A DNA stretch of 64,000 nucleotides from Bacteroidota bacterium. GTDB lineage: Bacteria > Bacteroidota > Bacteroidia > Chitinophagales > Chitinophagaceae. The position numbers were made by a program, and so were the translations under genes. Location of the stretch: contig JABDAN010000007.1 in assembly GCA_013289175.1 (NCBI GenBank), forward strand, positions 1-64,000, in the 5' to 3' direction. Below the pieces are notes generated by a model. It was not told the origin of the DNA and searched no databases. It saw only the letters and a program-made list of their open reading frames with translations. This document shows positions 22,763 to 38,457 of this stretch, in pieces. Each line of letters opens with the position of its first letter. Position 1 is the stretch's first letter.

Positions 22763-22804
22763 AACTTTACCTGTTCGAACCGATCAACGTTTAATGCATT
22801 TTGA

Positions 22805-23461: not shown

Positions 23462-23496
23462 CCGTTTTATCTGCAACACGCAAGGGACAATCTCCT

Positions 23497-24192
23497 TTAA
23501 AAAATTTCCATCAACTCCGCTAAGGAATGAACGGTATAGGTAGCCCGCACGGGCTCTATATTGCGGGTATGATTGACATAGACCTGATCGATCCCGGCGT
23601 TTGCTGCTCCCAGAATATCTACTTCGGGTGAATCCCCGATCATGACACTTTCTTTTATGGCAGCGCCCGTTTTTGCCAGGGCAAAATCAAAAATTTCCCG
23701 GTGGGGTTTGAGGCTGTTCGATCCTTCTGAAGTAATCACTTCCTGAAAATACCGGTCAATACCCGCCATTTTTAGTTTGTGGTGCTGCGTCTTTTCAAAA
23801 CCGTTTGTAATGAGATGAAGAAAATATTTTTTGTCATGAAGATAATCCAGCAATGTTACCGTACCGGGGAAAAGCGCTGTTTTGGTCGGTAGAATTTCCA
23901 GAAAAGCCATGCCCATTTGACGGGCCAGGGCTTCATCCCCATTTTTAAATTCCAACAGTGTGACGGCCATTCTTTTCCACCGGAGCTCATCGACTTTCAT
24001 GAGGCCTTTGCGATAACGTTCCCACAGCCGTTCATTATGACCCAGGTAGAGTTTATGAAAAAGATCAAAATCGTGTATTCCGTGATCGGGCAGGGACAGG
24101 CTTTGATAGAGATCAGCCAGGGCCTCCCGGCTGTTGGTATCAAAATCCCAGAGCGTATGATCCAGGTCAAAGAAAAGATGTTTATAGGCCAT
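23497..24192 (-). CDS. HAD-family phosphatase, YjjG-type (pyrimidine nucleotidase-like)
   Basis: A 231-residue haloacid dehalogenase-fold phosphatase. Motif I is FFDLDHTLWDFD with nucleophile Asp and the acid/base Asp two residues on; motif II is the Thr of LITNGF; motif III includes the Lys of LKPHREIF; motif IV is MIGDSPEVDI. The helical cap between motifs I and II and the TLWDF sequence fit YjjG/YfnB, which dephosphorylate (non-canonical) pyrimidine monophosphates as house-cleaning enzymes. I chose the ATG at 24192; longer versions run into the divergent promoter region. It is divergent from the SDR gene across a large inverted repeat. Confidence 0.87.
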   Translation of the reverse strand: MAYKHLFFDLDHTLWDFDTNSREALADLYQSLSLPDHGIHDFDLFHKLYLGHNERLWERYRKGLMKVDELRWKRMAVTLLEFKNGDEALARQMGMAFLEILPTKTALFPGTVTLLDYLHDKKYFLHLITNGFEKTQHHKLKMAGIDRYFQEVITSEGSNSLKPHREIFDFALAKTGAAIKESVMIGDSPEVDILGAANAGIDQVYVNHTRNIEPVRATYTVHSLAELMEIF

Positions 24193-24195
24193 GTT

Positions 24196-24230
24196 GCAAT
24201 GTAAGGCATCGGCGTTAAGCCGTACATTGC
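24196..24230. promoter_or_regulatory. Inverted repeat between divergent HAD and SDR genes
   Basis: Arms GCAATGTAaGGC and GCCgTACATTGC (11 of 12 bases paired) surround an 11-nt centre. The outer TACATTGC of each arm looks like a weak -7 box (TAnnTTG) and ends 3-4 nt from the start codon on each side, so it may be a divergent promoter pair, an operator, or both. Confidence 0.45.
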
Positions 24231-24234
24231 GTGG

Positions 24235-24936
24235 ATGAAAATTGTCATATCGGGGGCCTCCCGGGGCCTGGGGTTCAGTATGGCGGAAGCCTTTGCCAAA
24301 GAGGGGCACGATCTATACCTGACGGCAAAAAATGAAGTGACTTTGTATGGAGCGCTGGCTTCGCTCATGGCCCGGTTTCCGGATCAGACGATCAAAGCCA
24401 AACCATTTGATCTGGGTACCAAACAAGGCGCGCTGGATTTTGGACAATGGATTTTAGACGCGGGTGTGGCGACCGATATACTCATCAACAATGCCGGTAC
24501 CTTTCAACCAGGGCGTATTTATGATGAGCCCGAAGGACAACTGGAAGAAATCATGCAGGTCAATTTCTTCAGTGCCTACTACCTCACCCGAACCTTGCTT
24601 CCCTCGATGATCCAGCGCAAATCGGGTCATATATTTAACATCAGTTCCATCGCGGCCCTGCAGGCCTATCCGGGTGGAGGATCCTATAGCATCAGCAAAT
24701 TTGCTCTTTCAGGATTTTCAAAAAACCTCCGCCAGGAGCTCAAAGAATTTCATATCAAGGTCACTTGCATTTATCCGGGCGCCGTATACACCGATTCCTG
24801 GGAAGAGAGCGGCGTGCAACCGGCTCGCATCATGAAAGCCTCCGATATTGCCGATTCGGTTGTTCAGATCTCCAAATTATCTCCTCAGGCGGTGGTGGAA
24901 GAGCTGGTCATTCGTCCACTGGCAGGGGATTTGTAA
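24235..24936 (+). CDS. Short-chain dehydrogenase/reductase
   Basis: Classical SDR of 233 residues. The Rossmann motif is GASRGLG near the N-terminus (residues 7-13), followed by NNAG, the catalytic Ser in NISSIAAL, and the Y-S-I-S-K (YxxxK) motif, then P-G-A-V-Y-T. The protein is an NAD(P)H-dependent oxidoreductase; substrate cannot be told, although the size and motifs resemble the FabG/YgfF group. No signal peptide. It is divergent from the HAD phosphatase gene. Confidence 0.85.
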   Translation: MKIVISGASRGLGFSMAEAFAKEGHDLYLTAKNEVTLYGALASLMARFPDQTIKAKPFDLGTKQGALDFGQWILDAGVATDILINNAGTFQPGRIYDEPEGQLEEIMQVNFFSAYYLTRTLLPSMIQRKSGHIFNISSIAALQAYPGGGSYSISKFALSGFSKNLRQELKEFHIKVTCIYPGAVYTDSWEESGVQPARIMKASDIADSVVQISKLSPQAVVEELVIRPLAGDL

Positions 24937-25032
24937 ACAGAAGTCGGGGGCCATGACCCGACTGAAAATCGCGGCTTCTAAATTAAGAAAGCTTTAAGCT
25001 TTTAGCCGGGAGCTTTCCCGATCGAGTGTTTT

Positions 25033-25040
25033 TATATTTG
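25033..25040 (+). promoter_or_regulatory. -7 promoter box of batD
   Basis: TATATTTG is an exact TAnnTTTG match ending 10 nt before the GTG at 25051. Confidence 0.45.
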
Positions 25041-25050
25041 CAACGTTCAC

Positions 25051-26940
25051 GTGGTATTATTGACTAAATCCACTACCATCGAAACCTATATACCTTTCAG
25101 AATCATCCTTTTTTGCTGGCTATGTCTGCTGCTCAGTCCGGTAATGGCCCAGGTGAAATTTTCCGCCCAGGCCAGCGCCCAGCAGATCGGTAAATCCGAT
25201 TATGTGGAAATCCAGTTTGTCATTGAAAATGCCAAAGATGTGGGCAGTGTTCAGCCACCCGACTTCCCGGATTTTAATGTGGTCCAGGGACCGAACCAGT
25301 CTTCGGGGATGAGTATTGTCAATGGCAATATGTCTCAATACAAGGGAATCAGTTATGTTTTGCAACCCAGGAAAACGGGGGTTTTGACCATCAAACCCGC
25401 GACCGCCACCATCGATGGCCAGATCATGCATACCAATCCGCTGCAGGTCACCGTACAAGCACAAAGCAGCCAGAACAGCAGCAAGGCCCCGGGTTTTAAT
25501 CCGCTCCCGGATCCTTCCTGGCCAACAGCGCAGCCACCGGTTGATATGGATGAAGTCGTACGGCCCGGAGAAAATGTGGCAGAAAAAATTCGCAAGAACT
25601 TTTTTATCAAGGTGGAAGTCAGTAAAACGGATTGCTACCTGGGCGAGCCGATCGTGGCCACCTATAAACTCTATGCAAGGCTTCGCTCGGATTCGCGCGT
25701 AACCAAACATCCATCCCTGAATGGATTCAGCGTATACGATATGGTTGACCCATCGGAAGACCGGGTGGGGGTGGAAAAATATAATGGTAAAAATTATTCC
25801 GTCCACATCATCCGCAAAACCCAGCTCATTCCCCTGCAACCCGGAGATATCACACTGGATCCGATGGAACTGGACAATGATATCTATCTGGTGAAGGCAA
25901 CCGCGGGCGCTGGTAAAACGCCGGAATCCGGTTTTAGCGGACTTTTGGATAGGCTCTTTGATTCCGAAGGCGCAGGAACACCCTTTACCCAGCACCTGGT
26001 CATCGAAAGCAAACCGGTTACCATTCATGTCAAGCCACTGCCGGAAGAAGGCAAACCGGCAGACTTTAACGGAGCGGTCGGAAAATATTCCCTGAGCGCT
26101 TCCCTGGATTCCAAAGAAGTGGATACCGGAGATGCGGCGATTTTGGCGGTGACCATCAAAGGCACCGGCAACCTTCCGGTTATTAATTCACCGGTCGTCA
26201 ACTGGCCTGCCGGCATGGAATCCTATGACATGAACAGCAAGGAAAATATTGACAAAGCCAATGCACCACTGGGCGGTTCCAAGACATTCAACTATAGTTT
26301 TATCGCTTCCAAACCCGGTCACTACGTGTTGCCAGCGGTGAAGATGAGTTATTTTGATCCCAGCGCCCGCGTATATAAGAGCATAGAAGCCGGTCCGGTA
26401 CCCATTGAGGTCAATCACCTGGCAAAAAAGAAAAATACTCCCGTGGTTCAACCCGCGCCTGAGCATTCCAGAAATCCGGAGTGGTTCCGTTATTTGGGTT
26501 GGATCGCTGCCTTCGCCGCGATTGCGATATTGACGGTTTTTATTTTCAAGGAGTCAAAAAAAGATGCCGCACTCAAGGCAGAGAAAGCCAAAGAGGCGGC
26601 TGCCCTGGAGAAAATTGCTGCTGCCTCTATCAAGACCGATCCCTTGGAAGAGTCCAGGGCTTTTCGGGTATCGGGAGACTACGGTAAATTTTATGGTTCG
26701 GTTAACCGCGCCATCTGGAAAGGCGTATCCGATAAATTGCAGCTGCCTGCCAGTGAGCTCAATAAATTAAATATTGCCAGCGGTCTTCGGGCGCGGGGAT
26801 GGACGGACGATGAAATCATTCAACTGAAGAATATCTTAAATGAGTGTGAGTTAAAATTATATACCCCCGCTTATAACACCCTGGACGTGGAGCGCCTGCT
26901 GGGGGAAGCAGAATCGGTTACCCACCGCTTGACGGTCTGA
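25051..26940 (+). CDS. batD: BatD-like membrane protein
   Basis: A 629-residue protein with a cleavable signal (FRIILFCWLCLLLSPVMAQ), a long periplasmic beta-rich region of immunoglobulin-like repeats (about 35-465), one membrane helix (about 478-497) and a cytoplasmic tail of about 130 residues. This is the BatD layout; BatD is required for aerotolerance with BatA, B, C and E in Bacteroides. The start is a GTG at 25051, 10 nt after a -7 box. It is separated from batB-batC by about 7 kb of unrelated genes. The stop faces the response regulator gene. Confidence 0.85.
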   Translation: MVLLTKSTTIETYIPFRIILFCWLCLLLSPVMAQVKFSAQASAQQIGKSDYVEIQFVIENAKDVGSVQPPDFPDFNVVQGPNQSSGMSIVNGNMSQYKGISYVLQPRKTGVLTIKPATATIDGQIMHTNPLQVTVQAQSSQNSSKAPGFNPLPDPSWPTAQPPVDMDEVVRPGENVAEKIRKNFFIKVEVSKTDCYLGEPIVATYKLYARLRSDSRVTKHPSLNGFSVYDMVDPSEDRVGVEKYNGKNYSVHIIRKTQLIPLQPGDITLDPMELDNDIYLVKATAGAGKTPESGFSGLLDRLFDSEGAGTPFTQHLVIESKPVTIHVKPLPEEGKPADFNGAVGKYSLSASLDSKEVDTGDAAILAVTIKGTGNLPVINSPVVNWPAGMESYDMNSKENIDKANAPLGGSKTFNYSFIASKPGHYVLPAVKMSYFDPSARVYKSIEAGPVPIEVNHLAKKKNTPVVQPAPEHSRNPEWFRYLGWIAAFAAIAILTVFIFKESKKDAALKAEKAKEAAALEKIAAASIKTDPLEESRAFRVSGDYGKFYGSVNRAIWKGVSDKLQLPASELNKLNIASGLRARGWTDDEIIQLKNILNECELKLYTPAYNTLDVERLLGEAESVTHRLTV

Positions 26941-26970
26941 TCAAAAATTGATCGGATCTTTTCTTTTCGG

Positions 26971-27678
26971 CTATTCGGTGTATTTATAACCTACCCCCCG
27001 GACGGAATGAAAATGCCTGGGTTTGCGGCTGTCGTCTTCGAAATATTTACGGAAGTTCAGAATAAAATTGTCGATGGTCCGTGTATTGGGGTAGACCGTA
27101 TAGCCCCAAACGGATTGCAGGATTTTTTCTCTTTTCACTACTTCGTTTTTATTTTCAATCAAGAGTTTGAGCAGCATCGTTTCTTTTTTACTCAGACGGA
27201 AACGTTCGTTTTTTTTGTTAAAGGCTTCCTGGGCTTTGAAATCGATCATATTTTTTCCGAACACATATTGATCTGAAACGCTGTTGCGTTCCTGCAGTCT
27301 TTCGTTTTTTTCGATGAGTTTTTGGACACGCAACAAGAGCTCTTCCAGATTGAAGGGTTTGTTGAGATAGTCATCGGCCCCTTTTTTTAAACCCAGTACC
27401 CGATCGGCACTGGTTGTGCGTGCACTCAGGATCAGGATGGGTACAGGATTTTGTTGCACCCGGATGGTTTCAGCTACACTGATACCATCTACACCAGGCA
27501 GCATGACGTCCAGGATGACCAAATCGAAATATTCATCCGTCAGGGCTTTGAGCGCCTGATTTCCATCGTAGGCAGAAGTCACCTGGTAGTTTTCCAGTTC
27601 CAGGTTCAACCGAAGGGCGTCGTGCAGATTTTCTTCGTCCTCCACAAGCAGGATGGATTTACGGACGGGTTCGTTCAT
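26971..27678 (-). CDS. OmpR-family response regulator
   Basis: A 235-residue two-domain regulator. The receiver domain (about 7-118) has the acidic pocket E-D-E near residues 13-15, the phospho-acceptor Asp57 in VILDVMLPG, and Lys107 in NKPFN. The winged-helix DNA-binding domain (about 135-232) ends NFILNFRKYFEDDSRKPRHF-SVRGVGYKY, typical of OmpR/RprY. The start overlaps the histidine kinase stop by 4 bp (ATGA), so the pair is cotranslated. The regulon is unknown; the pair lies next to gldH and batD. Confidence 0.93.
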   Translation of the reverse strand: MNEPVRKSILLVEDEENLHDALRLNLELENYQVTSAYDGNQALKALTDEYFDLVILDVMLPGVDGISVAETIRVQQNPVPILILSARTTSADRVLGLKKGADDYLNKPFNLEELLLRVQKLIEKNERLQERNSVSDQYVFGKNMIDFKAQEAFNKKNERFRLSKKETMLLKLLIENKNEVVKREKILQSVWGYTVYPNTRTIDNFILNFRKYFEDDSRKPRHFHSVRGVGYKYTE

Positions 27679-28664
27679 ATGTTTAATAATTTAAAACGGA
27701 CGGTGAACCGGCTTCCCTGGGGGTGGTTATCCGAAACCTGGAGTTGCATTTTATGATCCTGTGTTATTTTCCTGCACAGATAAAGACCCAGCCCGGTTCC
27801 CTGGGCGGTACGCGTATTTTCATTGCCCACCCGGTAAAATTTCTGAAATATACGCTTGCGTTCTTTTTTGGGAATGCCCGCTCCCTCGTCGGTCACCTCC
27901 AGCGTTCCTTCGTCCCCTTCTTTTTTCAAATGGACGCTAACCGGTGAAGCGGCGGGAGAATACTTCACGGCGTTTTCGATCAGGTTGTTGACCAGAATTT
28001 GCATCAGCAAGGGATCTCCGGAAACAAACAGTCCTTCCGTCCATTCTTTTTTCCAGGTTCGGTTTGGAAAACGATTTTCAAAATCATGCACCGAAGCCGA
28101 TACAACGGAAGAAAAATTCAATTCCTCCTTGTTAAAAAGATAGGAACCGCCCTCCAGTTGAGCAGAGACCAGGATATTTCCGGTCAGGGTATTGAGGCGG
28201 TTGATTTCCTCCAGGGAGGACTTGAGTATTTTTTCTCTTTTGCCGACGTCGAGTACATGTTTTTGCAGGGTTTCCATATTGAGCTTGGCAATCGAAATCG
28301 GTGTCTTGAGTTCATGGGTAATGGCCATCATAAAATTCTGTTGCTGGTTTTGTATCCTAAACTGACGCATGATGGCGCTGCGAAGAAATATGGCCCCGGC
28401 CAGGATGACCAGCAGAAATGCCAGGCCTTCACTTTTGTAAGCTGCGGAAAGCCGGTTTCTGTCGCCGTTGATTTTTTCTACTTTACTGGCATAAGCGGGA
28501 TCCTGCGGCAAGAGCATTTCCAGTTTGGCAGAAGCCATCTGGTTGTTTTGCAGGTTCAGGGCGATATACCACCAGATCAGTGCGGCCAGGACGTAGATCA
28601 ATAACAGCCAGCAAATGACCGTAGCCCGGTTGGCCCATTGTATTTTATATAGGCGATTTGCCAT
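27675..28664 (-). CDS. Sensor histidine kinase
   Basis: Membrane kinase of 329 residues, partner of the response regulator that overlaps it by 4 bp. Two helices (about 14-35 and 80-98) flank a short periplasmic loop, so the sensed signal is probably small or membrane-borne. The H-box is AITHELKTPIS (His117 with this start), and the ATPase domain has NLIENAVKYS (N-box), DEGAGIP (G1), IFQKFYR (F-box) and GTGLGLYLCRKI (G2). The ATG at 28664 (M-A-N-R-L) is preferred over an upstream start at 28724 because the extra residues do not look like a signal or domain. Confidence 0.9.
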   Translation of the reverse strand: MANRLYKIQWANRATVICWLLLIYVLAALIWWYIALNLQNNQMASAKLEMLLPQDPAYASKVEKINGDRNRLSAAYKSEGLAFLLVILAGAIFLRSAIMRQFRIQNQQQNFMMAITHELKTPISIAKLNMETLQKHVLDVGKREKILKSSLEEINRLNTLTGNILVSAQLEGGSYLFNKEELNFSSVVSASVHDFENRFPNRTWKKEWTEGLFVSGDPLLMQILVNNLIENAVKYSPAASPVSVHLKKEGDEGTLEVTDEGAGIPKKERKRIFQKFYRVGNENTRTAQGTGLGLYLCRKITQDHKMQLQVSDNHPQGSRFTVRFKLLNI

Positions 28665-28770
28665 CGGTTCACCTGGAGGGGATCCACATTTTTTCGGAAT
28701 TGAAAAAGAAACGGGGCTCATCACCCGTCAGAACTGTCTATCCATTCCTCCTTTATCTCTATACAAATGA

Positions 28771-29238
28771 TCAGGGTGTTCGTTCAACTCTAAATCCAGC
28801 CGATAACACATTCTTCAAAGGATCCTCCCGCATGAGTTGTTCAAGCCTGATCTGATAGGTACCCGCTTTTTTAAATTTGGTGGCCGACTGGATAAGAATC
28901 CGGGCGTCATAGATATCGTCCATCGCCGTCCCGATCCAGCCTTTGGCATTGGTGGCGAGCTGGAGGTCATAGTCTCCGGATCTTCCCTGAGATACCCCGG
29001 GTTCCTTTACCGTGGCCCGTACATAAATATTATTAAAATGATAGGCATCTGTGTGCCGGATGACGATGTATAAATTATAAAGGGAATTGGTATCGGTGAT
29101 GTCAAAGGAGAGATCGGGTGTAACGGATGCAGGCCAGTCATGGTCTTTGAAATCCTGGTTTTTCTCAAAAACGCCCGTGGTCCAGCTGCAGGCAGAAAGA
29201 GTAAGGAGGACTGCCAGCACTAAAATAATTCTTCTCAC
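28771..29238 (-). CDS. gldH: Gliding motility lipoprotein GldH
   Basis: A 155-residue lipoprotein, start at the GTG at 29238 (next residues R-R-I-I-L). The lipobox is L-S-A-C and the mature part begins S-W-T-T-G-V-F-E-K-N-Q, a GldH hallmark, ending with GFRVERTP. GldH is required for gliding motility in Flavobacterium johnsoniae. The frame is open upstream to 29418, but that extension looks non-coding. It lies between yicC and the two-component genes on the same strand (about 106 bp to the kinase). Confidence 0.85.
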   Translation of the reverse strand: MRRIILVLAVLLTLSACSWTTGVFEKNQDFKDHDWPASVTPDLSFDITDTNSLYNLYIVIRHTDAYHFNNIYVRATVKEPGVSQGRSGDYDLQLATNAKGWIGTAMDDIYDARILIQSATKFKKAGTYQIRLEQLMREDPLKNVLSAGFRVERTP

Positions 29239-29354
29239 ACCAGGAATTTTTGTAAAAGTAAACAGTAAAGAGATGAACCGGATGAATTTGTTGCCAGCAG
29301 GAATTTCTTTGGACAGGGGCGAGCAATCACCGGATGGGTTAGGGGTCATAACGG

Positions 29355-30230
29355 CTATAATACATTCAGGATTTGTTCCTTGGCTTTTTCGAGTTCGTCT
29401 TTCATCAGCACCACGCATTTCTGGATTTTGACATCATAAGCCTTGGAACCGGTTGTGTTGATTTCCCTGCCAACTTCCTGTAGAATGAAAGACAATTTTT
29501 TTCCCTTGCTGTCTTCGGGTTCAGCCATCACCTCCTTAAAATAAGCGCAGTGATTTTTCAGCCGGACCATTTCCTCGCTGATATCGATTTTTTCCAGATA
29601 GTAGATCATTTCCTGTTCCAGGCGGTTGGAATCATAGTTTTCCTTGCCCACATGTTCGTTCAATAATTTTTCCAGGTTTTCTCTGATCTTCAACTGACGC
29701 AGTGGTTGGAGTTTCAGGATTTCCTCCTGTTGGAAACTGATATTTTCTATGCGCAGCACCAGGTCTTCTTCTAACACCCGGCCTTCATTGAGCCGGTGTT
29801 GGTTCAAATCCTCAATGGCCATCTCGATGACTTTACTAAACTGCTGCCATTCTTCCTGGGTCAGGGTGTCTCCGGTTGGGGTGATGACTTCCGGTAACTT
29901 CAGCAGTGTACTCAATATGTTGGAGGGATCCTGATTAAGTTGTTTGGACAGATCTGCCAGGGTTTCATAATATGCTTTGGCCAGATCGGTGTTGATGCTG
30001 ACCGGTTTTGCGTTGCCGGTTTGTTTTAGACTGATCGTGCAATCCAGGGAACCCCTTCCCAGTTTTTCGGAAAGCAACTTGCGGATATCAAATTCATAGG
30101 GTTTGAGAAAGCCGGGAAGTTTTAACTGAAGTTCAAATTGTTTGCCATTCAAGGATTTTACATCTACCAGAAAGGTTTTGTCACCCACTGTTTCTTCTGC
30201 CCTACCAAAACCCGTCATCGATTTAACCAT
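29355..30230 (-). CDS. yicC: YicC/YloC-family endoribonuclease
   Basis: A 291-residue cytoplasmic protein starting MVKSMTGFGRAE, the near-universal YicC N-terminus. Conserved parts include VDVKSLNGKQFEL, the long central helical arm, and the C-terminal LSFILQEVGREINTTGSKA-D. YicC proteins are reported to be RNA endonucleases that influence small RNA turnover. It precedes gldH; guanylate kinase, often its neighbour, is not in this stretch. Confidence 0.93.
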   Translation of the reverse strand: MVKSMTGFGRAEETVGDKTFLVDVKSLNGKQFELQLKLPGFLKPYEFDIRKLLSEKLGRGSLDCTISLKQTGNAKPVSINTDLAKAYYETLADLSKQLNQDPSNILSTLLKLPEVITPTGDTLTQEEWQQFSKVIEMAIEDLNQHRLNEGRVLEEDLVLRIENISFQQEEILKLQPLRQLKIRENLEKLLNEHVGKENYDSNRLEQEMIYYLEKIDISEEMVRLKNHCAYFKEVMAEPEDSKGKKLSFILQEVGREINTTGSKAYDVKIQKCVVLMKDELEKAKEQILNVL

Positions 30231-30262
30231 AGTATCCTGTTTAAGCTGGAAAGGTAATTAAT

Positions 30263-30859
30263 TTAAATCTGCGTCAACAGGCCGAGCTTGCTGTAGACTT
30301 CGTTTTGAACCATTTCAACCATGTCGCCCGATAACATGGCGTCCAGTGTCAATCCCACTAGCCGGTAACGAATGAGACGAAGGGTTGGAAATCCGGTGGC
30401 GGCGGTCATTTTCCGTACCTGTCTGTTTTTTCCTTCGGTAATGACCAGCTTGATCCAGCTGGTTGGAATATTCTTCCTAAAGCGAATGGGTGGTTTTCTT
30501 TCCGGTATGACGATCTGCTGCGGCAGAGGGGATGCTTTGGCCGCGGCGGTGTGAAAGGGTTTTCCGTCGACATGGATCGTAATTCCGGAAGCAAGTGATT
30601 CCAGCGCTTCCCGGGTGATGAGGCCTTCTACCTGTACCCGGTATTCTCTTTCGTGCGCAAAACTGGGATGAAGCAGGCGGTGGTTGAGGGATTTGTCATT
30701 TGTTAACAAAAGCAATCCTTCACTGTCATAATCCAGCCTTCCCACCGGATAGACATCGCCCGGGACCTCGAAAAAATCCTTCAGGCAGGCTTTGTCGTTT
30801 TCGGAAGTAAACTGCGAAAGCACCTGAAATGGTTTGTATATGATAAAGTATTTATACAA
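30263..30859 (-). CDS. RluE-like rRNA pseudouridine synthase
   Basis: A 198-residue RsuA/RluB/RluE-type pseudouridine synthase lacking the N-terminal S4 domain, as in RluE. The catalytic Asp43 lies in VGRLDYDSEGLLLLTND, followed by REYRVQVEG, EGKNRQVRKM and FPTLRLIRYRL. E. coli RluE makes pseudouridine 2457 in 23S rRNA; the target here is inferred. It is 32 bp upstream of yicC on the same strand. A candidate small RNA gene lies just behind its start. Confidence 0.88.
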   Translation of the reverse strand: MYKYFIIYKPFQVLSQFTSENDKACLKDFFEVPGDVYPVGRLDYDSEGLLLLTNDKSLNHRLLHPSFAHEREYRVQVEGLITREALESLASGITIHVDGKPFHTAAAKASPLPQQIVIPERKPPIRFRKNIPTSWIKLVITEGKNRQVRKMTAATGFPTLRLIRYRLVGLTLDAMLSGDMVEMVQNEVYSKLGLLTQI

Positions 30860-30921
30860 TTCAATTCAATGAAACAGGGATGAATAAAGGGTTTGCAAAG
30901 ATTTCTATAAATATAGTTGAA

Positions 30922-30995
30922 AATAAAAAGCCCCGCTGGCGGCGAGACTTTTACTATTTGGATGGGTTAGTAAGTACAGGGACATAAATATCCCT
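30922..30995 (-). ncRNA. Candidate small RNA with three hairpins
   Basis: Minus-strand unit of about 73 nt in a 252-bp gap. From 5' to 3': hairpin AGGGA/TCCCT (30995-30978) with an 8-nt loop; hairpin TTACTA/TAGTAA (30973-30951) with an 11-nt loop containing CCCATCC; and a terminator hairpin at 30952-30926 followed by CTTTTTATTTTC. In the terminator two positions pair as G-U only if the minus strand is transcribed; on the plus strand they are C-A mismatches. TAATATTG at 31006-30999 is a one-mismatch -7 box placed so that transcription would start at the first hairpin. No reading frame is visible. Confidence 0.5.
30926..30952 (-). terminator. Rho-independent terminator of the candidate sRNA
   Basis: An 11-bp stem around a 5-nt loop (30937-30941), with two G-U pairs on the minus strand and a T-rich 3' side reading toward lower coordinates. 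No protein gene lies upstream on this strand, so it must end a small transcript. Confidence 0.6.
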
Positions 30996-31088
30996 ACACA
31001 ATATTAGAAATAATTTTGTCTATCCCGAAAAATTTTCCAAGAAATTTTATGCACAATTTTTTTTAGGGTGTGGAAAAGCACTTTAATG

Positions 31089-31096
31089 TAGGTTTG
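31089..31096 (+). promoter_or_regulatory. -7 promoter box of the lpxD-like gene
   Basis: TAGGTTTG is an exact TAnnTTTG match ending 15 nt before the ATG at 31112. It argues against the GTG start at 31070. Confidence 0.45.
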
Positions 31097-31111
31097 CCCA
31101 AAATCTGCTCC

Positions 31112-32062
31112 ATGAAGTTTCCATCACCCGTTTCTTTGTCCTGGCTTTCAGAATTCCTGGGAGCAACACTGGTTGGCAACGTCGGTGCTTCAGCGACCGG
31201 CATCAATGAAATACATAAAGTTGAACCCGGGGACCTGGTTTTTGTAGATCATCCCAAGTATTATCAGAAGTGTATACAATCCGCTGCATCCTTTATTATC
31301 ATCAATCAATCGGTGGAGTTTCCTGCAGAAAAAGCATTGTTGATTGTCCCCGAGCCTTTTGAAGCCTATCAGAAAATAGTTAAACATTTCCGGCCCTTTG
31401 AACCGGCAACTGGGTTGATCAGTACGAGTGCCGTCGTGGGCAAGACTACCTATTTATATCCAGGTGTATTCATTGGTAACCACGTTCAGATTGGCGAGCG
31501 CTGTGTAATTCATCCTCAAGTCACGATCATGGATCATTGCACAGTGGGCAACGATGTCGTCATTCAGGCGGGCACCGTTATCGGTTCGGATGCCTTCTAC
31601 TACAATTCAAAGAAGAACCGGCCGGTATGGTATAAAAGAATGTTAAGCTGTGGACGGGTAGTGATAGAAGACGATGTGGAAATAGGAGCGGGTTGCACCA
31701 TCGACCGGGGGGTGAGTGGTGATACGGTGATCGGTCGGGGCACGCGTTTGGATAATATGGTTCATATCGGACACGATACCAACTTGGGTAAAAATTGTCT
31801 TTTGGCTGCACAGGTAGGAATAGCCGGTGCGGTGGAGATCGGAAACGGGGTAATCCTCTGGGGTCAGGTTGGTGTAAGCAAGACCCTTTCGATCGGAGAC
31901 GATACGGTTGTGTATGCCCAAAGCGGGGTACCTGCTTCCCTGCAGGGGGGTAAAGTATATTTTGGATCACCGGCCGAGGAAGCGTCCGTGAAAAAAAGGG
32001 AACTCGTATGGATTAAACGGATTCCTGAACTCTGGAAGAAAGTAAAGGACTTAAACGCTTAA
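31112..32062 (+). CDS. LpxD-like UDP-3-O-acylglucosamine N-acyltransferase
   Basis: Hexapeptide-repeat acyltransferase of 316 residues. LpxD adds the N-linked hydroxyacyl chain during lipid A synthesis. An N-terminal uridine-binding-like domain (about 1-100) precedes a left-handed beta-helix with many I-G-x-x-x-x-I/V repeats, including the likely catalytic His in VHIGHDTNLGKNC. The C-terminus is a short helix (LVWIKRIPELWKKVK). lpxA, lpxB and lpxC are not adjacent, so it could be a second LpxD paralogue or a related sugar N-acyltransferase. The ATG at 31112 is chosen from the -7 box at 31089. Confidence 0.78.
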   Translation: MKFPSPVSLSWLSEFLGATLVGNVGASATGINEIHKVEPGDLVFVDHPKYYQKCIQSAASFIIINQSVEFPAEKALLIVPEPFEAYQKIVKHFRPFEPATGLISTSAVVGKTTYLYPGVFIGNHVQIGERCVIHPQVTIMDHCTVGNDVVIQAGTVIGSDAFYYNSKKNRPVWYKRMLSCGRVVIEDDVEIGAGCTIDRGVSGDTVIGRGTRLDNMVHIGHDTNLGKNCLLAAQVGIAGAVEIGNGVILWGQVGVSKTLSIGDDTVVYAQSGVPASLQGGKVYFGSPAEEASVKKRELVWIKRIPELWKKVKDLNA

Positions 32063-32136
32063 ATAGAAAAAGAGGGGAATAAAAAGCGGTTGGTCGGTGG
32101 TTCCATCAACTACGAATGGATTGTTCAGCCCCTGTC

Positions 32137-33216
32137 TTAATCGGGATTGTAATCATAGGGCACCAGCTCCGCAATTTTCTTCCAGGCCCAATAGCCCATA
32201 TTGGTAATTTCAGATTGTTCAAAAAAATATCCATTCTCTTCAATGGAAAATCCTGCCGGTATATTGAGTGCCGATACTTCCGACTTGGCACTCAGGGGAA
32301 AATGATTTTGCATCAGATAGTTTTTGTCCGGTACCTGACCGCTGTAGGTGACCCTTATGGTTCCATTGATATTGATGTCTACCGTACCGCTGTCTACAGA
32401 ATAGATGTTTCCGTCATAAGGATTTTCCAAAATGGTTCCTTTGTCTGATTCCGGAGCGTTCAGGGTTTCCACTTGGAAACCTTCTGTGGAGAGGGTACTA
32501 TCGTACCAGGATCTCATGAAATGCAGCCGGGAACCAATATAAGTGCGGTACCTGTTTTTTGACCAGCGTTGCTGATCATCGGCTGTACCGGGAAGGTTTT
32601 CAAAAAGCGGATAGCCGGTATAGCTGCTGATATGGGTGTTGTAGTCATTGACAAATGAATCCAACTGGTACTGGATTTTGTAACCCAAGGCCTGGTTTAG
32701 TATGATGATGGGTGACTTTGATTTTACTTTGAGCTTGTTGCGTTTTTTATAAAAATAAAAGACGATCGAATCTTTGTTTTCTATCGTACACTGGGATGCG
32801 TTGGTCGAAGTACCGATAAAATTATCCAGAAAAAACTGGCCGTATTTATTCCATCCGTCGGCTACCATGGCAGAACCGGTGACGGCTACCTCACCCAGGC
32901 TTTTGTTCTCTGTCCTCATTTGTATTAAAAGGGAGTCTTTGTCCTTGGTCCCATTGCTCACGCGCAAAACCTGGGTTTCATAACCCGTATAAGAAACCAC
33001 CAGGTCGTATCCTCCGTTGTTTAACCGCAAGGAGAAGTGGCCATCGTTGTCTGTAATGGTGCCGGTCGTCGTGTTCTGGCAAAAGACGGAGGCATTAAAA
33101 AGCACAACGCCCGATTTTTCATCGACTACTTTGCCATGGATGTAAAACTGCTTATCCTGGCTGAAAGCCGTCACGGAAATCAAAAGCATGCAAGCAACGA
33201 TTAAAAATAATTTCAT
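32137..33216 (-). CDS. Exported carboxypeptidase-regulatory-like domain protein
   Basis: A 359-residue secreted protein with a signal peptide (MKLFLIVACMLLISVTAFS). Residues about 24-105 form a CarboxypepD_reg-like beta-sandwich (KVVDEKSGVVLFNASVFCQ... GYETQVLRV), as found at the start of TonB-dependent receptors and in many Bacteroidota surface proteins. The remaining 250 residues are unrecognised, with aromatic and polar patches but no beta-barrel end. It may be a periplasmic or surface protein involved in binding. It is convergent with the lpxD-like gene. Confidence 0.72.
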   Translation of the reverse strand: MKLFLIVACMLLISVTAFSQDKQFYIHGKVVDEKSGVVLFNASVFCQNTTTGTITDNDGHFSLRLNNGGYDLVVSYTGYETQVLRVSNGTKDKDSLLIQMRTENKSLGEVAVTGSAMVADGWNKYGQFFLDNFIGTSTNASQCTIENKDSIVFYFYKKRNKLKVKSKSPIIILNQALGYKIQYQLDSFVNDYNTHISSYTGYPLFENLPGTADDQQRWSKNRYRTYIGSRLHFMRSWYDSTLSTEGFQVETLNAPESDKGTILENPYDGNIYSVDSGTVDININGTIRVTYSGQVPDKNYLMQNHFPLSAKSEVSALNIPAGFSIEENGYFFEQSEITNMGYWAWKKIAELVPYDYNPD

Positions 33217-33357
33217 CTCTTATCAGGTATTAAGGTTGAAAGACCAGGATTGGATGCGTTATCTCCATTGCAAAATTCCTTCTATGATAACGAACAGGAG
33301 GAGGCGGAAGTATATGTTGTTGGGAGAAGTTTGGCGGCTGTAACAAAAGAAGTAACA

Positions 33358-34347
33358 TCAGGCGTTCTTTAGGTTTTCCAAGTATCTGCTGCAAACCTCC
33401 AAAATGGAATCTTCCAGGGGACGGAAACGAAAATCCGGTAATGCGCGGAGCATTTTTTGAGCATCATACACCGCCTGTTTCTGGACGATCGCGACCGATT
33501 CTTGGGTTATGAGGGGTTTGACGTCAGAAAATCCAGATTTTATTTTTTCTATCCGCCAGGCCAGGGAGGCAATCAGGGCACCCGCTTTTTTAGCGGGCGG
33601 CTTTTTCCCGAAGCCCTTGGCCATCCAGGTAAAAATTTCCAGGTATGTTCTGTTTTCTGCGTTGATGATAAACCGTTCATTGCGTACCCCGCTGTTCATC
33701 AGGGCTACCATTGCACGGGCTGTGTCTCTTACATCAGCGAATCCGTTTCGTCCGTTCATGAACCAGGGGAATTCTTGGAAGGCTGCTTTAAACATAGCGC
33801 AGCTGGTCTCGTTCCAATCACCAAATCCCAGTTGCACCACCGGATTAACGATCAGTGGAGTAAGCCCTTCACCCATACCCCGCCAGACTTCCATTTCTGC
33901 GTAGTATTTGCTGATGCTGTAATGGGTCAGTCCGTTATTTCCGAGCCATTTTTTTTCTTCGTTGATGGGTTCGGATCCATCGGCGTTGCCGAGCGCCCCC
34001 ACCGAACTTACATGTACAAAATCAGTTATTCCCAATTCGATCGCGGTGTTGACCAGATTGGCTGTTCCTTCGATGTTGTTCTTGAATAATTTCTTCTTAT
34101 CAGAAGGATCAAAGGAAACCAGGGCCGCCGCATGAACCACCTGTTCACATCCGGCCATATTTTCAGACAGACCAACCAGGTCCAATATATCGCCCTGGAC
34201 CCAGGTTATTTTTTCTGAAAGTCCAGGTGGCATATAGGAAGGCAGGCGTCTATTTCTATAGAGTGCTTTTACGGATTTCCCTTGAGAAATCAGTTCCTCC
34301 AGAATATGAGACCCGAGAAAACCCGATCCGCCCGTTACAAATATCAT
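33358..34347 (-). CDS. NAD-dependent epimerase/dehydratase family protein
   Basis: Extended SDR protein of 329 residues with the N-terminal NAD motif VTGGSGFLGSHILEEL, a catalytic Tyr-Lys pair in HYSISKYYAEMEV, and a preceding Ser in VSSVGALG. The substrate is a nucleotide sugar, a dihydroflavonol-like molecule or a sterol-like molecule; it cannot be told. It overlaps the hydroxyacyl-CoA dehydrogenase gene by 4 bp (ATGA), so the two are translationally coupled. Confidence 0.85.
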   Translation of the reverse strand: MIFVTGGSGFLGSHILEELISQGKSVKALYRNRRLPSYMPPGLSEKITWVQGDILDLVGLSENMAGCEQVVHAAALVSFDPSDKKKLFKNNIEGTANLVNTAIELGITDFVHVSSVGALGNADGSEPINEEKKWLGNNGLTHYSISKYYAEMEVWRGMGEGLTPLIVNPVVQLGFGDWNETSCAMFKAAFQEFPWFMNGRNGFADVRDTARAMVALMNSGVRNERFIINAENRTYLEIFTWMAKGFGKKPPAKKAGALIASLAWRIEKIKSGFSDVKPLITQESVAIVQKQAVYDAQKMLRALPDFRFRPLEDSILEVCSRYLENLKNA

Positions 34348-35204
34348 TCGGATTCGGATTTATCATACTGAAAAAATCCACGACCTGTTTTTTTCCCCAG
34401 CCAGCCTTTTTTTACCAAGTCCTCCTGCAGGATCGAGGGTTTTAGGCGGGCCGGTGTACCGAGTGCATCATATAAGGATTTACTCACTGAATAGTTGATG
34501 TCGTTGCCGATTAGATCCATCAGGTGGAAGGGTCCCATCTTAAATCCAGCTGATTCCATCAACCGGTCAATCGTTTCGGGTGGAGCGATCTGAAGTTCCA
34601 CGAGGCGCAAGGCTTCCAGATAGTAAGGGCGTGCGACATGGTTTACAATAAAACCGGGTGCATCCCGGCAGACCACCGACGTTTTTTTAAGTTGAGAGGC
34701 AAATGCCCGGAGGCGCTGGATCGCCGCTTCGGTATTAAATTTTGTTTGGATGATTTCCACGAGTTTCATCCGGTTAGCGGGATTGAAAAAATGTAAACCC
34801 GCTATTCTTTCCGGGAAAGGTGTTTGGGCTGCCAGGTCGGTCACAGAAAGAGAAGAGGTATTGGTGGTAAAAAAAGTATCTGGTTTGTTTATTTGCGCCA
34901 GTTCCAAAAACAGGTCCCGTTTGGTCTGCATTTTTTCCTGAATCGCTTCAATAATAAAAGAAGCCTGGGCATCTGCTACCTGGGTCGTGAAAAGGATCTT
35001 TCGCAGGGTGTCCTCTTTTTTCTCCGGGGAAAAACGTTTTTTTTCCACCCCTTGAGCCAATTCGTTTTCGATAAAGGATTTAGCCTGGGAAAGGATTTTT
35101 TCATCCACATCATACAATATCACTGCGATGCCGCACAGGGCGGTGGTGAGTGCAATACCCCGGCCCATGGTACCGGCTCCGCAAATACAAACACTGGATT
35201 CCAT
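34344..35204 (-). CDS. 3-hydroxyacyl-CoA (3-hydroxybutyryl-CoA) dehydrogenase
   Basis: A 286-residue NAD-dependent enzyme oxidising 3-hydroxyacyl-CoA. The N-terminal Rossmann motif is CGAGTMGRGIAL; the catalytic region is AGLHFFNPANRMKLVEII (His in LHFFNP), and the C-terminal helical domain includes DAPGFIVNHVARPYYLEAL and GPFHLMDLIGNDINYSV. The length is that of single-function Hbd/PaaH. It starts the two-gene unit with the epimerase. TATCTTTA at 35216-35209 (minus strand) is a near -7 box 4 nt from the ATG. Confidence 0.92.
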   Translation of the reverse strand: MESSVCICGAGTMGRGIALTTALCGIAVILYDVDEKILSQAKSFIENELAQGVEKKRFSPEKKEDTLRKILFTTQVADAQASFIIEAIQEKMQTKRDLFLELAQINKPDTFFTTNTSSLSVTDLAAQTPFPERIAGLHFFNPANRMKLVEIIQTKFNTEAAIQRLRAFASQLKKTSVVCRDAPGFIVNHVARPYYLEALRLVELQIAPPETIDRLMESAGFKMGPFHLMDLIGNDINYSVSKSLYDALGTPARLKPSILQEDLVKKGWLGKKTGRGFFQYDKSESE

Positions 35205-35338
35205 TCAATAAAGATACGGTGCTACGGGGGAACCCTTCCTGTTTGAATCCCTGGAATCCATCAAGTATATCCCGGGGCTGGACGTTAATGGAAGGCTTGT
35301 AAAAAATTCTATGCCATCAGCCGTTACATATTAAACGT

Positions 35339-35346
35339 TATTTTTG
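35339..35346 (+). promoter_or_regulatory. -7 promoter box of ridA
   Basis: TATTTTTG, exact TAnnTTTG, ends 4 nt before the ATG at 35351, the same geometry as for the amidase and pheS genes. Confidence 0.5.
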
Positions 35347-35350
35347 GCGG

Positions 35351-35731
35351 ATGGAAAAAAGAATCATCAAGACCGCCGATGCACCGGAACCCATCGGACC
35401 TTATAACCAGGCTGTCCAGGTTGGCAATATGCTTTTTATTTCCGGTCAGGTGGCGATCAATCCTAAAAACGGAGCCATTGAAGCCAAAGATATTTTTGAA
35501 GAAACCCATCAGGTGATGCATAACCTGCGCGCCGTACTCCATGCGGCAGATATGGATTTCAAGCAAGTAGTAAAAACTACTATTTTTCTAACGGATATGG
35601 CACTCTTCCCTTCCGTCAACGAGATCTATGCCAAATATTTCATCGGAGATTTTCCGGCCCGTGAAACCGTCGCCGTGCGCGGCCTTCCCAAAAATGTCAA
35701 CGTAGAGATCAGCATGACGGCCATTGGATAA
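35351..35731 (+). CDS. ridA: RidA family enamine/imine deaminase
   Basis: A 126-residue YjgF/YER057c/UK114 protein that hydrolyses reactive 2-aminoacrylate-type enamines and imines released by PLP enzymes. It carries APEPIGPYNQAVQVG at the N-terminus, the FISGQVAINPK motif and PARETVAVRGLPKNVNVEISMTA at the end, with the active-site Arg in P-A-R-E-T-V. Length is typical; the active protein is a trimer. A -7 box sits 4 nt upstream. Confidence 0.95.
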   Translation: MEKRIIKTADAPEPIGPYNQAVQVGNMLFISGQVAINPKNGAIEAKDIFEETHQVMHNLRAVLHAADMDFKQVVKTTIFLTDMALFPSVNEIYAKYFIGDFPARETVAVRGLPKNVNVEISMTAIG

Positions 35732-35777
35732 TAATATATAGGATATGGTTCGGCAGAAAAGCAACCAGTTTTTCGTC

Positions 35778-36965
35778 CTATGCTTTTACGGGTAATTTTT
35801 CCCGGACCTTAATAAAGGAAGCGATGGCATGATCCAGGTGTTCTCTGGAATGGGCTGCACTCAGTTGTACCCGAATGCGTGCAAGTCCTTTGGGCACGAC
35901 CGGAAAGAAAAATCCAATCACATAAATGCCTTCCTCCAGCAAGCGGGCTGCGAACTCCTGGGCCAGGACCGCATCGTAGAGCATGATGGGGACGATCGGA
36001 TGATCGCCCGGCCGTATGTCAAATCCCGCGGCGGTCATTTTGGTTCTGAAATACCGGGTATTGGCTTCCAGCTTATCGCGCAGCGTAGTATCCCGACTGA
36101 GTATGTCCAGGATGGCCAGCGAAGCACCGACAATCGAGGGGGCAAGGCTGTTTGAAAAAAGATATGGCCGGCTGCGCTGACGAAGCATTTCAATGATGGA
36201 TTTGCGGCCGCTGGTAAAACCACCGTTTGCACCACCCAGTGCCTTCCCCAGGGTTCCGGTGATGATGTCCACCCGGCCCATCACCTGCCGGTATTCATGG
36301 GTACCCCGGCCTGTCTTTCCCAGAAATCCGGAGGAATGAGACTCATCGCTCATGACGATTGCTGAATATTTGTCTGCCAGATCACAGATTTTGTCGAGTT
36401 GGGCGATGGTACCATCCATGCTGAAGGATCCGTCGGTTACAATGATTCGGTCCCTGCAATCGGAAGCCGATTTCAACTGTTCTTCCAGATCTGCCATGTC
36501 ATTGTGTTTATAACGCAGTCGGCGCGCCTTGCAGAGTCTTACTCCATCAATGATGGAAGCGTGGTTGAGTTCATCGGAGATGATGGCGTCCGCTTCACCA
36601 AAGAGCGGTTCGAAGACCCCTCCATTGGCGTCAAAAGCCGCTACATATAATATCGTGTCTTCCATGCCCAGAAAAGCTGAAATCTTTTCTTCCAGTTCCC
36701 GGTGGATATCCTGGGTGCCGCAGATAAACCGGACACTACTCAGACCATAACCACGCTTGTCCAGCGTGGCATGGGCAGCCTGGATCACCGCCGGATGGGA
36801 AGAAAGGCCCAGGTAATTGTTTGCACAGAAATTGAGCACACTGCGTCCGTTTACTATGATTTCTGCGCCCTGCTCGCTGGCGATCACCCGTTCGGTTTTG
36901 AAAAGACCTGCCTCCCGGATTTCTTCCAACTGCGTAGAAATGCGGCGAACAAAAAGCTCATGCAT
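35778..36965 (-). CDS. kbl: Glycine C-acetyltransferase (2-amino-3-ketobutyrate CoA ligase)
   Basis: PLP enzyme of the alpha-oxoamine synthase family that splits 2-amino-3-oxobutyrate to glycine and acetyl-CoA in threonine breakdown. The 395-residue protein has [20 protein letters not shown] at the N-terminus, [11 protein letters not shown], the His/Asp region [20 protein letters not shown], and the PLP Lys in [13 protein letters not shown]. Close relatives (KBL, serine palmitoyltransferase, BioF) share the fold; overall length and motifs favour Kbl. The partner threonine dehydrogenase is not in the window. The convergent ridA is a sensible neighbour for a PLP enzyme. Confidence 0.9.
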
Positions 36966-37055
36966 GGTATAATTTTTAGCGGGATAAAGGTAAGCTTTGT
37001 AACTTTTTGAAGGGTCAATCGTATTACTAATGACGAAAACAACGGGGATGGGCTT

Positions 37056-37541
37056 ATGACGGCAGAGGACTACAATAACTGCGTGAAGTGGTATGCAGAC
37101 GGGCTCTACCGGTTTATGCTGAAATCTACCCGTCAGGTGGAAGATGCTAGGGACCTGGTCCAGTCTTCCTTTGAGAAATTATGGGAGCACCGGGGTGAAA
37201 TCAATCAGCTGAAGAGCAAGTCTTATCTTTTTACGATTGCCTATCACAAAATGATTGATTTAAACCGAAAAAACAGCCGAATGGAATTCCGGGAGAACCT
37301 GCCGGAACCTGTGACCGCCGATGAGCCCCACCGTCCCCGGATCAAAGAAGTGCTGGACAAAGCGCTCGGCCGCCTCAATGACCGGCAAAGGTCACTCGTG
37401 TTGCTCAAGGACTATGAAGGCTATTCTTATGAGGAAATTTCAGAGATCACAGGATTAAACGGATCGCAGGTGAAAATAACCTTGCACCGGGCGCGGCTTC
37501 AGTTAAAAGAATGGCTGGTCAGCGTGGAAAATGTACTGTAA
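37056..37541 (+). CDS. ECF-type RNA polymerase sigma factor
   Basis: A 161-residue extracytoplasmic-function sigma factor. Region 2 (about 5-75) includes [17 protein letters not shown] and [17 protein letters not shown]; region 4 (about 100-155) includes [22 protein letters not shown] and the recognition helix [19 protein letters not shown]. It is followed directly (10 bp after the stop) by an anti-sigma-like gene and an outer-membrane protein gene, so all three likely form one regulated unit. Confidence 0.93.
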
Positions 37542-37551
37542 AGAAAAGGAT

Positions 37552-38442
37552 ATGGATATCAACCGGAATAATTACGAAAACTATTTTCTTCTTTACCTGG
37601 ATAAGGAACTGAGTTCTACGGACGGGGAACTCGTAGAAAAATTCCTGCAGGAAAATACCGACCTGCAAAAGGAATTTGCCCTGCTGGAATGCACTGTTTT
37701 TTCTGCCTCGGACGTCGTCTTTGAACCCAAAACATGGCTGTATAGGAAAGAGGAAAAAAGAAGGGTTATCCCTCTGTACTGGACCCGGATTGCAGCCGTC
37801 GGGGTAGGGCTCATTTTGGGAACCTGGTTTATTCTTTCCCAGCAACACTATTTCTCCCCTCATCGGGATGCCGTTCATGCCACTGCAGAAACAGAAAAAA
37901 ACAAATTGAACCCCGGTCTTTCAAAGAAGAATGAAAAAGGGAAGCCGGAAGACAACCCCATAGAGAAAGTGCTTCTTCCCCCTGCGGTGGTAAAGACAGA
38001 AAAGAAAAAAGAACCGGTTTTAAAAAATCCAATCCTGGTAATACCCGGTGAAAAAAAATTGGCTGTAGACCAGGTAACCGTCGCATCGCAACAAGATTTG
38101 GGTTTGGAAGAATCAACGGATCCATTGCGTCTATCCCGTGCGGTGGTGGTTTTACAATCCCAACATCTTGGCCTGGCGGCCGAAACCCAACGGCTCGGAC
38201 AAATACCGGGTGTTAAGCCGGCCGCCCTGACGCTATCTGGATCTGCGATAGAAGATACACGCCGATATGAAAAGGCCACAACCGAAATGTATGATACCAC
38301 CAATGACAATGCCATCAGCGTCATTGCGCTGAACAATCAGAATAAGGGAATCGGAGGATTTTTAAAAAAACTGACCGGACGCGAACCGGCAGGTGATGAT
38401 ACAAAAAAAGTTCGCGTCAGTGTTTTTCAAATCAGCTATTAA
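37552..38442 (+). CDS. Single-pass membrane protein, probable anti-sigma factor
   Basis: A 296-residue protein with a cytoplasmic N-terminus (about 1-75), one membrane helix (about 82-104, IAAVGVGLILGTWFI) and a long periplasmic part rich in Lys, Glu and Pro. Its position right after the ECF sigma gene and this topology fit an anti-sigma factor, although no zinc-finger Cys/His set is seen. An ATG at 37531, overlapping the sigma gene, would add seven residues (M-Y-C-K-E-K-D). The outer-membrane gene follows 15 bp later. Confidence 0.7.
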   Translation: MDINRNNYENYFLLYLDKELSSTDGELVEKFLQENTDLQKEFALLECTVFSASDVVFEPKTWLYRKEEKRRVIPLYWTRIAAVGVGLILGTWFILSQQHYFSPHRDAVHATAETEKNKLNPGLSKKNEKGKPEDNPIEKVLLPPAVVKTEKKKEPVLKNPILVIPGEKKLAVDQVTVASQQDLGLEESTDPLRLSRAVVVLQSQHLGLAAETQRLGQIPGVKPAALTLSGSAIEDTRRYEKATTEMYDTTNDNAISVIALNNQNKGIGGFLKKLTGREPAGDDTKKVRVSVFQISY

Positions 38443-38457
38443 TAAATAAGTACTACC

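Follow-up and report, generated by a model that had tools for sequence, protein, structure and literature searches.

The minus strand of the window (the whole 64,000-nt stretch of DNA analysed here, which belongs to the 80%-complete genome G000) probably encodes, between positions 31006 and 30920, a trans-acting small RNA that pairs with a family of partner sites, with mutual antagonism as the most likely consequence of this pairing. In the mechanism that we propose, this RNA (RNA1, ~73 nt) would be built of a 5' hairpin, a mostly single-stranded seed of 16-17 nt and a terminator, and its seed would pair chiefly with RNA2, a tiny terminator-ended RNA produced immediately upstream of radA; some genomes would offer a further partner, a similar tag placed before the terminator of the recA, bacilliredoxin or S24-type repressor mRNA. 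Each RNA would sequester its partner or expose it to nucleases; the DNA-repair and redox loci would, through their output, determine how active RNA1 is, and RNA1 would in turn determine the abundance or the 3' ends of the tagged transcripts. We infer the transcription, the pairing in the cell and the outcome of this pairing from sequence, and the evidence points to a possible circuit of pairing RNAs with a connection to DNA repair.

RNA1 lies, as the first-pass annotation had stated for its candidate, in a gap with no protein gene (30860-31069), flanked by a minus-strand pseudouridine synthase gene (30263-30859) on one side and by a divergent plus-strand gene on the other, lpxD-like by Pfam. 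The near-consensus -7 box reported there is also real: TAATATTG (30999-31006, minus strand) departs at one of the six specified bases from TAnnTTTG, which is given as the Bacteroidota -7 consensus in the excerpted text of PMC7366714, and is the same in all 98 sequences found by BLAST; the RNA1 of G539, found by an RNA model, has TATTATTG as its -7 box. At a distance of 20 nt from this box there is a T-rich TTTC (31027-31030, minus strand), which may represent the -33 region, and in which the first three positions are T in 97/98 sequences and the fourth is T in 80/98 (C in the window). Two further boxes are conserved upstream on the same strand, namely TGTGCATAA (reverse complement TTATGCACA; 31047-31055), with TGT, A and TAA columns kept in 95-97 of the 98 sequences and two variable middle columns, and the DnaA-box-like (TTWTNCACA) TTTTCCACA (31069-31077), with the majority letter present in 56-94 of the 98 sequences per column and with a T in the window at 31075, where the majority letter is A. 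The conserved DNA extends upstream to about 31077, beyond the interval originally annotated, and BLAST conservation ends at ~30920. The computed start of the lpxD reading frame (GTG 31070) overlaps the outer box, ATG 31112 being the likelier start.

With its start placed from the -7 box, the predicted transcript RNA1 (about 73-76 nt) occupies 30920-30995 of the minus strand. It comprises hairpin 1 (30974-30999, minus strand, whose outermost bases may precede the transcription start), the seed GUACUUACUAACCCAUC (30961-30977, minus strand, whose 5' bases could also close hairpin 1) and an intrinsic terminator with a U tail (30920-30952, minus strand), a stretch of 23 nt lying between hairpin 1 and the terminator. 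The seed columns are conserved in 95-98 of the 98 sequences, except for 30977 (92) and 30961 (89). The T-tailed terminator seen at first reading ranks top among 33 terminator-like matches in 22000-40000 (22.4 expected from shuffles), and of 55 RNA1 sites, 53 have a terminator immediately after the seed.

The minus strand of 30999-30922 folds with -26.0 kcal/mol (z -3.92, equalled by 0/200 shuffles), whereas the plus strand of the region reaches -14.7 kcal/mol (z 0.06), so that the minus-strand direction, originally argued from the G-U pairs of the terminator stem, holds. In an alignment (A1) of 91 of the 97 distinct RNA1 sequences (six were omitted to shorten the list), changes on both sides are found at 7 of the 11 pairs of helix 1 (in which 87.1% of the cells are paired), at all nine pairs of the terminator stem and at none of the six pairs of the middle helix; by alignment columns, just 6/91 relatives have all six pairs of this last helix. 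When the pairing partners were slid by 1-3 columns, all covariation measures dropped, and among 500 shuffles three matched the count of pairs with both-side changes and none matched the other measures. Since the middle helix does not covary and the two others do, we describe RNA1 as a hairpin, a largely single-stranded seed and a terminator. The earlier model of three hairpins, with covariation to be looked for in all three stems, stands for the first hairpin and for the terminator, and was rejected for the middle stem. The C-rich stretch of RNA1 is a nearly invariant segment (the columns of UACUUACUAACCCAU are at 95-98/98), and in two divergent lineages (G132, and G053 with G141) hairpin 1 is reduced and the seed is retained. 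A possible RNA1 peptide of 26 codons, noticed by eye, was set aside, its ATG being absent from most aligned relatives.

By DNA search, RNA1 was recovered from 31 of the 33 genus genomes (the window's own among them), and from all 18 of those of good quality. Across the family, the strict RNA1 core is present at 74 of 80 lpxD-like loci and a relaxed pattern adds two more (L062 and L109; 76/80), while in the genomes of the remaining four loci the RNA model (R1) finds RNA1 in G539 and G540 and finds none in G538 and G541. Outside the family, the model found no RNA1 in 24 genomes (with 150 candidates scored in each, an empty answer that alone shows little). Rfam 15 gave no match at gathering score in the window, the best score at the RNA1 locus with a permissive E-value being 18.8 bits (threshold 52.1 bits), and the literature covered, mostly other than subscription papers, yielded no description of RNA1, including in a full-text search for the seed letters, whose matches had titles on eukaryotes or an animal virus. 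RNA1 appears to be a genuine small regulatory RNA that as yet has no name and is spread across one bacterial family, Chitinophagaceae (Bacteroidota); conservation, stem covariation and the partner sites described below give good support to the annotation of an unannotated small RNA having a promoter and a terminator of its own, its three-hairpin architecture apart. Additionally, possible RNA1 paralogues were seen as an extra RNA1-sense seed with a terminator at L141, L224 and L120 (in G133, G123 and G037, respectively), all in genomes that also carry the usual RNA1.

The gene downstream of RNA1 varies among relatives (pseudouridine synthase, yicC and others), and therefore RNA1 is not the leader of one gene. 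In several relatives (e.g. L055-L057) the start of the pseudouridine synthase follows directly after the terminator, as would be expected if RNA1 were a cis-acting leader or attenuator of this gene, but yicC is directly downstream at many loci, a convergent gene is found at L043 and the conserved seed has its partners elsewhere; given this variable synteny, we rejected such a leader, which we judge very improbable. A promoter, a terminator, a conserved RNA structure and a variable downstream gene, all recognisable in the DNA, are what is expected of an independent gene for a trans-acting small RNA. The endoribonuclease gene yicC (29355-30230 in the window) neighbours RNA1 in many relatives, possibly by chance.

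The upstream block of the relatives includes TTTTCCACA-like and TGTGAATAA-like boxes, which stay with RNA1 even at loci that have lpxD at a distance of 1.5 kb (L061) or in whose fetched sequence it was not found (L022 and L023), 31047-31055 being the most frequent position of loose DnaA-box-like matches. The strict pattern TTWTNCACA, on either strand, occurs in 89% of 140 RNA1 upstream regions (1.6% of shuffles and 18% of same-locus segments, which as controls can overlap RNA1 itself) and, for RNA2, in 28% of 68 such regions (1.3% and 4.0%, respectively), and the loose pattern TTWTNMACA in all 140 and in 62% of the 68; these counts are not independent, since the regions are related by descent. 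Box-like sequences precede both promoters in the window's own genome, at 31047-31077 for RNA1 and at about 1430-1450 of locus L123 for RNA2. That DnaA binds the upstream boxes is a guess, and control may be exerted by a DnaA-box-binding factor. DnaA-box-like sequences upstream of nearly all relatives examined could also mean that the conserved block is a DNA-level replication origin, with DnaA boxes and merely incidental hairpins. We give this reading almost no credence, as hairpin 1 and the terminator covary as RNA on one strand and, in the complete genome G041, RNA1 is located at 3.89 Mb, while the GC skew (20 stretches of 20 kb, one against the trend) switches near 2.8-3.05 and 0.78-1.02 Mb; the window itself has no skew switch at 31 kb. 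The origin was rejected on this GC skew.

The partner RNAs are located elsewhere in the genome, beyond what the first reading of the window could see. Five genomes searched for CTTACTAACNCAT yielded at least two copies each. The 13-mer CTTACTAACCCAT occurs in 110 of 117 genomes from the family, two copies being the commonest number (control matches turned up in a minority of genomes), whereas of 377 Bacteroidota genomes that do not belong to the family, 14 have it, each a single time. The 13-mer is above background only in this family. From the matches listed for the family search, 130 sites were fetched, of which 52 are RNA1 and 78 have the other sense or context (ATGGGTTAGTAAG), and which, as exact-pattern sites, cannot reveal variation within the 13-mer. 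Among these listed matches, most of the 78 non-RNA1 sites form a second conserved unit, RNA2, whose layout, taken from 53 pattern-fitting sequences (set A2), is a promoter-like TTTTG ... TAATTTAG, then GAATTTAATGGGTTAGTAAGTA and then a terminator. Of the 55 RNA2-type loci among the matches listed, 54 have RNA2 upstream of a radA gene that is on the same strand (two of the 55 were fetched twice, and the exception, L114, is a 601-base locus). In the window's own genome, it is found on contig 16 (locus L123, about 1490-1550), between an RNase E/G gene and radA, and is complementary to the RNA1 seed over 15 nt; the adjoining RNase E/G gene (L123 3-1199) may be there by chance. RNA1 and RNA2 are both present in 48 of 58 sampled genomes, all of them chosen for the exact 13-mer, and no Rfam family matched RNA2 at threshold when a permissive E-value was used. 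These complementary sites, together with the conservation of the C-rich middle of RNA1, give good support to the earlier suggestion that this stretch may pair with targets. A mini-ORF in RNA2 (AUG-GGU-UAG) was dropped as an explanation, since some partners have lost it (CUGGG in G053, GUGUG in G142).

The whole-transcript duplexes of 48 RNA1-RNA2 pairs have a mean energy of -31.4, against a shuffled mean of -22.8 (sd 4.6, best -43.2). Because whole-transcript energies are blurred by the terminator arms, seed-only duplex energies were used instead. Models of RNA1 and RNA2 were searched in 26 genomes picked for odd or missing seeds, giving RNA1 matches in 19 (none in G042, G068, G080, G097, G105, G538 and G541) and RNA2 matches, several of them weak, in 21 (none in G042, G097, G105, G534 and G538). 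Two matched changes of seed and partner were noticed, both after the fact and in one genome each. In G132, where RNA1 reads CAUUUACUAACCCAU and the radA-linked RNA2 reads AUGGGUUAGUAAAUG, two pairs have changed on both sides and 15 bp are kept, the cognate duplex having -22.2 kcal/mol, compared with -17.3 and -19.1 with the consensus partners; among the four genomes of its genus, G132 alone has the matched change. In G142, RNA1 carries ACACA and the recA 3'UTR carries GUGUGUUAGUAAGUAU, forming 17 bp (16 Watson-Crick) with -22.2 kcal/mol, compared with -18.2 and -16.3; this tag came up after the fact, as a weak match of the RNA2 model (E 0.009). Additionally, the duplex is preserved through G-U pairing in five genomes, namely G049, G531, G084, G532 and G533 (G531 and G532 were scored for energy).

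Conserved complementarity and compensatory changes, which are characteristic of base-pairing RNAs, are therefore both found, with exceptions. In G064, a counterexample, the RNA1 sequence CUUAAUAACCC has a middle mismatch that leaves 8 uninterrupted pairs with RNA2. In G033, G034, G054 and G142, the RNA2 is of an ATGAG type (Arachidicoccus-type), likewise a counterexample, whose A:A mismatch to RNA1 leaves 11 bp and beside whose sites radA was not found; in the first three of these genomes, no site fitting the changed seed was present among the matches listed, in a search that left recA out. The duplex of G053 and G141 has 13 bp or fewer, because RNA2 reads CUGGG, and the RNA1 of G535 and G536 (CCCAC) loses the end of the duplex. 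A second RNA1-like match in G053 and G141 (L302 and L303), complementary to the CUGGG-type RNA2, is a palindrome and was not counted as evidence. In G117 (L232 and L233), an RNA1-sense site at the lpxD/yicC locus has no TAATATTG, and its seed continues into CCCATAAATTC, a longer match to the RNA2 of that genome (GAATTTTATGGG), one bulge excepted. On the whole, the evidence supports pairing, without telling a regulator from a decoy.

The partner sites were compiled into a set of 149 distinct ones (those fetched among the matches listed, plus seed variants met on the way), comprising 68 upstream of radA, 10 in recA 3'UTRs, 13 in 3'UTRs of bacilliredoxin (BrxA/B), 2 in 3'UTRs of a repressor with HTH and Peptidase S24 domains, and 56 with no named context. 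The last group contains 33 sites of the ATGGGTTAGTAAG form (including single out-of-family matches from loci L268-L281), 19 of the ATGGGTTAGTAAA form and 4 of the ATGAGTTAGTAAG form. Eleven of the 25 proteins with a tag in the 3'UTR were named by profile and the others by tblastn. Fifteen of these 25 tags are the exact 13-mer (6 recA, 7 bacilliredoxin and 2 repressor), nine differ in the last base (3 recA and 6 bacilliredoxin) and the remaining one is the recA form of G142, so that a full 13-base match is found in only 13 of the 23 tags of recA and bacilliredoxin; among the ten recA sites, one (L255) is 190 nt past the stop codon. On the strand of the tag, a terminator comes next in 54 of 56 RNA2 sites and in 20 of 29 other sites, and on the opposite strand one is found in 6 of these 29 (89/1400 in random segments), so that the other sites are not random either. 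Over 394 family genomes, the ATGGGTTAGTAAA variant is at about background overall, though the 28 ATGGGTTAGTAAA loci that were read include some 3'UTRs of recA and bacilliredoxin. A search for GGGTTAGTAA in the window's own genome, which is 80% complete, gave no recA tag and, besides RNA1 and RNA2, two copies, one in a leucyl-tRNA synthetase-like reading frame (by eye) and one with no clear context. Seed-like matches in a plsY-like coding sequence (L164, L331 and L357; by eye) were taken as coding coincidence. From these sites, we would only tentatively propose a family-wide regulon, in which one small RNA reads the pre-terminator tags of recA, the S24 repressor and bacilliredoxin, together with a decoy RNA linked to radA, and in which the tag would co-evolve with the seed.

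Two rivals of similar weight have to be considered here, one in which the tagged transcripts are controlled directly and one in which the partners are nothing but sponges. In the first, RNA1 would act directly on the 3'-end stability or termination of recA, bacilliredoxin and the radA leader, RNA2 being an attenuator leader of radA; the downstream gene of RNA2 is nearly constant (radA), and for this reason RNA2 could indeed be a cis leader or attenuator. The tags stand directly before terminators, the G142 recA tag fits a changed seed, and RNA2 is just upstream of radA, with its terminator within 60 nt of the start codon in 10 of 59 cases (32 nt in the window's own genome), all of which agrees with direct action. 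Nevertheless, we find this explanation rather unlikely, considering that the gap between the RNA2 terminator and radA has a median of 113 nt (17/59 above 150 nt, up to 677 nt), which leaves room for a separate radA promoter, and that the paired stretch precedes the terminator stem without overlapping it. In the second rival, RNA1 would regulate further mRNAs, and RNA2 and the 3'UTR tags would be sponges, relieving RNA1 when the radA, recA or bacilliredoxin loci are active. RNA1 is mostly single, yet in 22 of the 58 genomes one or more exact sites exist in addition to those of RNA1 and RNA2 (some coincidental), and sponges derived from mRNA 3' ends are described in the part of PMC9438474 relied on here. 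Against such a role, seed complementarity is not enriched at translation starts, whose broad targeting has no support: energies under -14 kcal/mol were reached by 2 of 283 genes from 400 kb of G041 (1.9 on average for shuffled seeds) and by 1 of 48 in the window (0.6 for shuffled seeds), using crude ORF calls for these 283 and 48 genes. We likewise hold this rival to be doubtful.

Mutual titration or co-degradation, the outcome that we favour, was preferred because CrfA with SisA-D is the closest known design. In this Caulobacter system (SisA-D being alphaR8), as presented in the excerpt of PMC12559287, one RNA inactivates several siblings by pairing through a conserved single-stranded core, the siblings having unrelated promoters and being made of a weak hairpin, the single-stranded core and a terminator. 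The two systems differ in that CrfA/SisA-D, according to the same excerpt, was demonstrated in cells and is helped by Hfq, whereas RNA1 and RNA2 are known from sequence alone; in the core, a 10-nt UUUCCUCCCU there and an unrelated seed of 13-17 nt in RNA1; and in the partners, which for RNA1, unlike for SisA-D as described in PMC12559287, are tags before terminators, including those in the 3'UTRs of repair-gene mRNAs. RNA1 was accordingly rejected as a member of alphaR8 (SisA-D, Alphaproteobacteria), having the core CUUACUAACCCAU instead of UUUCCUCCCU and no Rfam family at gathering score. The pair SroC-GcvB and other sponges cut from mRNAs also resemble our system, in that an mRNA-borne RNA is complementary to a small RNA, but SroC is presented in the consulted portion of PMC9438474 as a single sponge processed from an operon; in the RNA1 system, similar tags are carried by several transcripts unrelated to one another, and in two genomes the tag fits a changed seed. 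Within the same phylum, GibS and other Bacteroides small RNAs are likewise intergenic and largely single-stranded, and the excerpted text of PMC7366714 mentions no obvious Hfq or ProQ homologue in Bacteroides and suggests extended seeds, which the 13-17-nt seed of RNA1 would fit. GibS belongs, however, to a different family, scoring 22.3 bits against RNA2 (gathering score 115) and giving no match for RNA1.

Small RNAs with complementary partner RNAs are already known. To our knowledge, a conserved pre-terminator tag that is carried by several repair-related transcripts and matches one RNA is unusual, and we know of little charting of base-pairing RNA control in Bacteroidota outside Bacteroides. 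If our reading is true, 3'UTR target sites common to several genes would be read by a single RNA, and such a regulon would exist in a phylum in which at least Bacteroides has no obvious Hfq. The system offers an RNA pair with a long near-invariant seed, natural compensatory mutants and tagged transcripts (radA leader, recA, bacilliredoxin and an S24-type repressor), so that a possible involvement of a small-RNA circuit in the DNA repair of this family becomes directly testable.

Finally, some of the sites may represent a further class of tag RNA (L147, L148, L193, L210, L214, L246 and L250), with a TAnnTTTG-like promoter in front. In three of these (L147, L148 and L250), ACTTAC and GTAAGT flank GATGGGTTA, an arrangement in which the complementary site could occupy the loop of a hairpin.
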